From NCBI GenBank assembly GCA_963965975.1, contig OZ014414.1, positions 5,555,501 through 5,619,500 of the forward strand: DNA of 64,000 nucleotides. The letters run 5' to 3'. The notes beneath the pieces are model-generated. The model was not told where the DNA came from and searched no databases. It saw only the letters and a list, made by a program, of their open reading frames with translations. The DNA is from Xestospongia bergquistia. Taxonomy: Eukaryota > Porifera > Demospongiae > Haplosclerida > Petrosiidae. Positions 60,850 through 62,662 of the stretch are shown in pieces; within the stretch, counting starts at the first letter, position 1; each line of letters starts with the position of its first letter. The position numbers and the translations under genes were made by a program.

Positions 60850-62662
60850 TTAAATTTCTTTACGCATTGTGAGGTAAGGTTTATCACCAGTGTGTGTACG
60901 AACATGAGTTTGGAGATTACTGTTATCGTTAAATCCTTTTCCACAGTACTGACATTGGTAAGGTTTATCACCAGTGTGTGTACGAAGATGAGTTTGGAGA
61001 TGATAATTATGACAAAATGTTTTACCACAGTACTGACTTACATAGATAAGATTTACCACCAGTGTGTGCACAAAGATGAGTCCTCAATGATGACTGATCA
61101 CACATACTATCTGGATTCTCAATTAGCAGTTTATCATTGGAAATGAGTTCTTTCTTATGATTTCTTCCATTTACATCAAGTTCTTCAAAACTAGTTGTGA
61201 TCCCAAGTTCTCTTGCATATTGTTCACCATACCATACATAGAGTTCATTACCAGGATATATATGCTTGAATGAGCGATAATAGATGTTACCTTGATACTG
61301 AAAAGCAACTAAATTCTGTTCATCTTCATTGCGAGCACAGTTAATAAATTGTAACCAATTACTTTGCTTATCTGATTGACCATCAATATAATATGACCTC
61401 CCTCCAACACGCTTCACCTGAATAAATTAAAACAATTAATTCTTATTATTTTATTACAGTACCTCCAAACATGTATCTAGTATCTTCTCCTTCAGTGAGC
61501 TCTTCTTTTAACACTCTCCTTCCTTTATAAGGGCCAAACCTAACTCCACGAGGTATAAACTGTGTAGCAAAAACACCCAGACCAGCATTGGGTATCATAG
61601 AAGGTTTAACAGTTAATTCAGATGGAACAAATACAGTAGTGTATTGTAGAGATGCTTCATCATGACCATCATTAGAAGGATCTAAAGTTAGCAAGGGTCC
61701 ATGTACAGGACAGTCACCATGATGAATTTCCTCACAGTCCTCACAAACTAGTAACAAAAGTTGTACAAATAACCATATTGATACTGAACTTACAGAAATA
61801 TTCATCTTCATCAGATAGTTCATCTTCTCTATATTCTTTATGATGACTTAATCTCTTAGGATATCGTTCACTAACTGGACATTGAGGTACATCACCACTC
61901 AGACTGTATTAAGAAAAATATATCAGCAATACTGATATAATCTAACTTACACATCTTCAATATCAAATCCTTCAAAGTCTTCATATTCTTCATTATTATC
62001 ATCTCCAAATAACTCAAAAAACTTATTAGACAACTTGCAATCAAGGCTCTCAAATGAAGGCTCCTCTCTTTCTATCATCGATATTGGAAAACCATGGAAA
62101 TCTTCATCATCACTATTGCTAAGCAACCAGTCGGGAAGCTTAGAGAGATCAATAACTTTCATAGACTTCGTATTGATTACAGGTTTGTAATATTTCTTCT
62201 CCTGTGGTTTTTGCTGTTTCAAGACTCTTATAAGTTGGTGATCCCAACATTGAGAGGAATACTCTAACATTATATTTGCATCAAATACTTACCACATATT
62301 CTGTATCACACAAAGGGACTCTCACTGCAGTATCAATCACTGGAACTAATCACAAAAGAATGATGTCCATATTTAATTTACAAGTTTATACTTCTCATGA
62401 CATCATTTGGTCAGCAGGTATCCATTCATCTCCACTATCACTGCTACTATTACTACAATTACTATATTGTCGTCTTCTTCTCCTTTTTCTAACTCTACTC
62501 TTCTTTTGGGACTTAACATCTAAACCTACACACAATATTTATGACTTTTTATTTACCATACAATATTATTATACCTAAAGTTTTCATGACTACAATATTC
62601 TTTTCAACATTCTCCATTCTTCTCTTCTCATAGTCACATAATTCTTGCATTACATATGCCAT
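60850..62662 (-). CDS. PRDM9-like: PRDM9-like protein: KRAB-like, SSXRD-like, PR/SET and C2H2 fingers
   Basis: Exon 1 (62662-62575) encodes [20 protein letters not shown] then [10 protein letters not shown], matching the end of the PRDM9 KRAB region (D-W-EK-x-R-x-x-NV-x-x-N...GL). Exon 2 from 62525 gives a basic stretch then [14 protein letters not shown], like the DSDEEWTPRQQ motif. Further exons: about 62334-62293, about 62264-61949 and 61903-61794 ([20 protein letters not shown]), then 61747-61463 with a zinc knuckle ([17 protein letters not shown]) and the PR/SET start ([27 protein letters not shown]), then from 61417 the SET end ([40 protein letters not shown]) and two to three C2H2 fingers ending TAA at 60852-60850. 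Problems: TGA at 62397-62395 in exon 2, one extra base before the donor at 61463, and a 4-base insertion (AAGT, near 61040) in the first finger. PRDM9 proteins methylate H3K4/K36 and bind DNA in meiotic nuclei. Confidence 0.8.

Follow-up and report, generated by a model that had tools for sequence, protein, structure and literature searches.

The data point to a PRDM9-like feature on the minus strand of the window (the whole stretch of 64,000 nucleotides analysed here, C4:5555501-5619500), running from 62662 to 60850. In many vertebrates, PRDM9 is the protein that determines the sites of chromosome recombination. We read it as a decayed, dispersed copy from a large, tandemly amplified PRDM9-like gene family, and give this reading a probability of roughly 0.6. 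PRDM9-type identity and decay of the copy are together very probable on the sequence evidence, and the existence of an amplified PRDM9-like family is predicted with equally high confidence. The tandem-amplified family elsewhere in the genome is the larger fact, beyond sight from the window alone, and a family with one PRDM9-like running array is a more interesting result than the relic in the window.

The window copy and its decay

Read beside its siblings, the window copy is arranged into eight exons with introns of about 50 nt, all on the minus strand. Exon 1 (62575-62662), which is also found in siblings, matches the C-terminal half of the PRDM9 KRAB-A box and is followed by a phase-1 intron at its final G. 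Exon 2 (62392-62525) encodes a basic stretch and, from the sibling alignment, a DSGDEW motif; exon 3 (62293-62345) is short and is missing from several siblings. Exon 4 (61951-62243) encodes an acidic linker with an insert of 35 residues that, among ten aligned copies, is common only to the window copy and the sibling at C7:899 kb. The segment at the SSXRD position is in exon 5 (61794-61897), and exon 6 (61463-61747) encodes the zinc knuckle and the first half of PR/SET, with the second PR half in exon 7 and the fingers in exon 8. The PR/SET domain (61199-61613) is covered by two PF21549 matches with an intron between them (C4:5616699-5616935 and C4:5616970-5617113). The remnant of the C2H2 exon (60850-61180) contains a single degenerate finger and, beyond a frameshift of 4 nt, two good fingers and a stop. 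A KRAB-like start, the DEW motif, the knuckle, PR/SET and C2H2 fingers are therefore found on the minus strand in the order given by the initial annotation.

The window copy is not an intact gene. Compared with siblings, exon 2 carries a 25-nt frameshifting deletion, there is a 1-nt insertion close to the exon 6 donor, and a deletion of about 240 nt has removed the last intron and two fingers. The acceptor before exon 4 reads GG rather than AG. With the 4-nt frameshift in the finger exon, two good fingers are left, and the terminal tandem C2H2 array that is present in siblings is not present here. The best model of the window copy contains four frameshift events, in comparison with none in 18 other anchors (the PR matches used for gene models). 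The nearest sibling is 0.929 identical to the window copy over 1360 aligned bases, exons and introns included.

The window copy could still function as a gene that has few fingers and uses alternative splice sites. Its PR/SET exons retain their reading frames and the three tyrosines, and there is an in-frame alternative donor at the end of exon 6. However, the frameshift count, the GG acceptor and the frameshifted, truncated finger array make a working gene improbable, and we prefer the reading of a decayed copy.

Three features lie near the relic. Just upstream, at 62781-63192 on the minus strand, is the tail of a small partner gene (..AKERYLARKRTKLSQPT..), which is present in 11 of the 20 loci L009 to L028. 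The partner gene, whose tail reads AKERYLARKRxKLSQPT, lies immediately upstream of PRDM9-like copies, and at L021 it starts with the same KRAB-like exon 1. A finger-less half-KRAB gene thus seems to travel with the family. Pfam models gave nothing convincing on the tail, and no SSXRD; the tail may resemble the splicing regulator NSRP1. Further upstream of the window copy is an orphan array of six C2H2 fingers of the family type (63745-64000, continuing past the window to about 64290; minus strand), apparently cut off at its 5' end, and the genome search with the PR model found no PR match beside it. Beyond the window, near C4:5623.7 kb at locus L009, a reading frame resembles by eye the C-terminus of a hAT transposase.

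PRDM9 identity and the KRAB-like start

The knuckle and PR domain of the C7:899 kb sibling were used as a query against all solved chains. PRDM9 structures rank first (4c1q, 3.1e-44; 4ijd, 1e-40; 6nm4, 1.3e-40), ahead of PRDM14 (1.4e-28), PRDM12 (1.6e-25), PRDM1 (2.1e-24) and PRDM11 (2.9e-24). The same sibling is identical to mouse PRDM9 at 76/166 positions and to human PRDM11 at 56/158, and the values for the window copy are 72/165 and 54/159, respectively. The zinc knuckle lies directly before the PR domain, as seen for the sibling by alignment with 4c1q and 4ijd and for the window copy by motif. The equivalents of the catalytic tyrosines Y276, Y341 and Y357 of human PRDM9, which the initial annotation had singled out for checking, are all kept in the window copy, in the strings FGPY, IYYR and VWYG. 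Together with the best structural match and the identity counts, these tyrosines support the PRDM9-type assignment.

The PR/SET tree proposed with that annotation was built, unrooted, from 17 sequences, among which PRDM1 and PRDM4 are partial; its branches are long. It separates PRDM9, PRDM11 and the family from PRDM1, 4, 12, 14 and the genome's own PRDM on C11, with moderate support of 92/89 for this split. PRDM11 is on the same side as the family, and the tree is consistent with PRDM9-type identity rather than decisive for it. PRDM11 resembles the family in having a knuckle and PR domain, and with human PRDM9 as a query it is the next best match after PRDM9 itself; the PRDM11 match of the family is lower than its PRDM9 match. 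PRDM11 is not known to carry an array of C2H2 fingers.

A gapless alignment of 25 residues pairs exon 1 with the C-terminal half of KRAB in human PRDM9. The C7:899 kb exon scores 59 and the window copy 56, in comparison with a shuffle mean near 19.5, and for each of three versions (window, sibling and composite) none of 2000 shuffles reached the exon 1 score. A control stretch of PRDM9 scored at the shuffle level. When exon 2 is added, with its DEW motif, the score rises to 83.

The other half of the domain, F-x-D-I-x-x-x-F-x-x-E-E-W, is absent from the exon 1 copies aligned, and what is found is the C-terminal half of KRAB rather than a complete domain. The Pfam KRAB model has no match to the sibling protein at a limit of E 10 (HMMER filters drop most matches above about 0.1), and in the whole-genome search neither it nor, by the same model, a canonical KRAB of the KRAB-ZFP kind is found at any PRDM9-like locus. 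Motif scans for the N-terminal half found none in the window from 62651 to 64000, nor in the sibling upstream DNA covered (less than 1.5 kb each). There is little room for a first KRAB half in the window, because the stop of the small partner gene is 118 nt before the start codon. The sole match to Pfam KRAB in the genome, at C12:2747302-2747367 (minus strand; 21 bits, E 0.047), is interrupted by stop codons.

The initial annotation had noted an S-x-R-E-R region before the knuckle, and there is a segment at the right position. Tested on the sibling without the shared DEY..C end, its SSXRD likeness is not significant, with 718 of 2000 shuffles reaching the same score. Pfam SSXRD has no match in sibling proteins and none at family loci genome-wide. 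The suggestion of a full-order PRDM9 therefore holds in part: KRAB is matched over one half, an SSXRD cannot be demonstrated and the window copy has decayed, but siblings look intact. The KRAB-like start itself stands for its C-terminal half.

Assignment of the family to PRDM11 or another PRDM, with a KRAB likeness by chance, would fit the lack of Pfam KRAB and SSXRD matches and the moderate support in the tree. We regard it as very improbable, since the PRDM9 E-value is 20 orders of magnitude better than that of PRDM11, and exon 1, at the correct position in the protein, exceeds all of its shuffles where the control stretch does not. Additionally, siblings show finger variation of the PRDM9 type, as described below. 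PRDM9-type identity remains the preferred reading.

The amplified family and its finger arrays

The profile search covered the genome of 146.46 Mb in 21 contigs and gave 96 matches to the PR model, which were merged into 69 loci. Most are on C7 (57, in clusters of 12, 32, 9 and 4), with eight on C1, two on C4 and one each on C14 and C11. Two candidates were set aside: the C11 gene (C11:5644 kb, L010) is another PRDM, with PRDM14 as its best solved match, and the locus at C4:9797 kb looks, on inspection by eye, like another kind of SET protein. This leaves about 67 family loci, a lower bound in which fragments are included.

Gene models were built on 36 PR anchors, from the DNA of roughly half the loci; these take in the C11 gene and one C1 gene counted twice. 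Half of the anchors (18/36) gave undamaged models, with an M start and free of frameshifts and stops up to and including the first finger, although three of the 18 contain a spurious 2-nt exon. The anchors outside this set are damaged, truncated or without exon 1. The proteins encoded by undamaged siblings start with a half-KRAB-like N-terminus, followed by a linker with basic and acidic parts, the zinc knuckle, PR/SET, a few single fingers and then a C2H2 array that can reach about a dozen fingers. At least five fingers, counting the single fingers before the array, are present in 16 of the 18, and all three tyrosine motifs in 14. There is also a dispersed copy at C14:3522 kb (L011) with PR and fingers undamaged, in which the first tyrosine is F; a KRAB-like exon 1 was looked for beside this copy and none was found.

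The copies might instead be uncollapsed haplotypes or assembly duplicates, and those at C7:3584, 3604 and 3931 kb are indeed nearly alike in the PR tree. This is highly unlikely for the set as a whole: copies are spread over C7, C1, C14 and C4, the mean silent divergence in PR codons is 0.11, and finger arrays differ between copies (models scoring at least 1500). A gene family remains the reading we follow. Its PR codons are under purifying selection, with a pN/pS of 0.41 over PR and knuckle codons in 136 pairs of 17 undamaged copies.

The fingers show a different pattern. Non-array fingers, those starting CQKC, CDYC, CDHC or CKN, were left out, and 131 of 157 fingers were kept, from 19 genes and with 114 distinct DNA sequences. 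The contact codons -1, 2, 3 and 6 come first among 7315 four-position nonstructural sets for amino-acid differences in 777 close pairs, a ranking drawn from family array fingers only. Their pN/pS, against overall synonymous change in the same pairs, which are not independent, is 3.16. The excess of amino-acid diversity at finger contacts was found for siblings only, and this PRDM9-like variation at the DNA contacts lends further weight to the PRDM9-type identity.

The diversity proportion P was measured in 22 models, namely those having four or more adjacent fingers. At contacts its median is 0.330 and its maximum 0.508 (C7:899 kb), and 12 of the 22 arrays have values at or below 0.331. In the table of Baker et al., complete vertebrate PRDM9 has P from 0.331 to 1.000 and partial orthologs mostly 0.16 to 0.33. 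On average, the 15 arrays compared are not homogenised (0.891 within arrays, 0.888 between). The clear exception among them is C7:899 kb, at 0.982 within the array and 0.926 to others, and among the ten fingers of its array there are amino-acid differences at positions -2, -1, 2 and 3 and in a single residue of the linker. By these measures C7:899 kb looks like a running PRDM9, and the remaining siblings look like older, diverged specificities.

Possible roles and relation to known PRDM9 systems

By analogy with the named families, the finger array would pick a DNA sequence, the PR/SET domain would write H3K4me3 and H3K36me3 at the array-bound site, and a zf-CW/PWWP (ZCWPW-type) protein could read the H3K4me3/H3K36me3 double mark. 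The likeliest use would be germline marking of recombination-initiation sites. The C7:899 kb sibling would be the best candidate for an active PRDM9 equivalent, and the other copies may be diverging specificities or relics. The odds that at least one sibling functions in meiotic recombination seem to us evenly balanced.

There is a candidate reader gene at C9:911 kb. When spliced by hand it has zf-CW (4.6e-14) and PWWP (1e-11) in the ZCWPW order. The ZCWPW-type name is tentative because its zf-CW, in an incompletely joined form, is closer to solved MORC3 (9e-11) than to ZCWPW2 (1e-7). ZCWPW1 and ZCWPW2 track PRDM9 across vertebrates (PMC8892340).

Alternatively, the family could act like vertebrate KRAB zinc-finger genes: its many, rapidly changing members would modify chromatin at chosen targets and in this way control transposons or gene sets, with recombination a side role at most. 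The number of loci and their tandem clusters fit such a role, as do the many undamaged models with different arrays, the contact residues that diverge between genes, and the general absence of homogenisation within arrays. The hAT-transposase-like reading frame, seen by eye about 6 kb from the relic, would also be in keeping with it. In the other direction, a PR/SET of the active type would write activating marks, one sibling has a homogenised PRDM9-like array, and the half-KRAB is of PRDM9 type; according to PMC8835667, human PRDM9 has an ancestral KRAB that shows no silencing activity in its unaltered form. We consider this alternative, the main rival, to be less likely than not, and a recombination role remains the use we favour.

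The KRAB-ZFPs resemble the family in forming a large clustered set with diverging fingers, and SSX, a KRAB protein without fingers, has a parallel in the small half-KRAB-like gene beside family copies. In contrast with both, the family keeps PR/SET, and the tail of the partner gene is without SSXRD by Pfam. Vertebrate PRDM9 (KRAB-SSXRD-PR/SET-C2H2 array) is matched in domain order, in the CxxC-x7-CxxH spacing of the knuckle, in the PR/SET tyrosines of most undamaged models, in variable C2H2 contacts and in the presence of a ZCWPW-type gene in the genome. It differs from the family, which has half a KRAB and no demonstrable SSXRD, occupies dozens of loci rather than one or few, has mostly unhomogenised arrays and includes the broken window copy.

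Two other PRDM9 systems are also comparable. The Nematostella Prdm9 (PMC2779102) is a PRDM9 homolog from outside Bilateria whose contact positions are under positive selection; however, it is described as one predicted gene, and the accessible text of its report shows no tandem amplification. Salmonid Prdm9 (PMC11703093) has several paralogs per genome, many of them truncated or decayed, with 6 to 14 copies, one or two of them full-length, arising partly through genome doubling. The family here comprises about 67 loci, and of the 36 anchors 15 to 18 gave undamaged models. We found no earlier report of a comparable PRDM9 amplification in a literature search made mostly outside subscription journals.

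The initial annotation had proposed that such a gene in a sponge would place the whole PRDM9 architecture near the root of animals. The PRDM9 type agrees with this, but the order is only partly shown and the idea is not new. A silicatein-type pattern, used as a test for a sponge, matched the genome once, in a sequence that reads CGSCYAF and is cathepsin-like, which does not show a sponge origin. A 2026 paper (PMC13186367) already reports full-length homologs of PRDM9 from cnidarians and sponges, with Oliver 2009 and Ponting 2011 as its sources; a term search of the accessible text of Oliver 2009 (PMC2779102) found Nematostella and no sponge. The half-KRAB is a separate matter. All 666 entries of the KRAB compilation in PMC8835667 come from Bilateria, and a PRDM9-type half-KRAB outside Bilateria, if the host is a sponge, would date the motif earlier than that compilation.

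Finally, we suggest tentatively, and at rather less than even odds, that a non-bilaterian animal may have turned PRDM9 into a large tandem family with many co-existing DNA specificities. Such a family might parallel, by independent origin, the expansion of KRAB zinc-finger genes in vertebrates, with the difference that the histone methyltransferase was kept, and recombination sites or transposon targets might then be set by the whole repertoire rather than by one gene. If several siblings are expressed in the germline, this animal would offer a way to ask if recombination directed by PRDM9 is older than the bilaterians and if many PRDM9 specificities can operate side by side in one genome.
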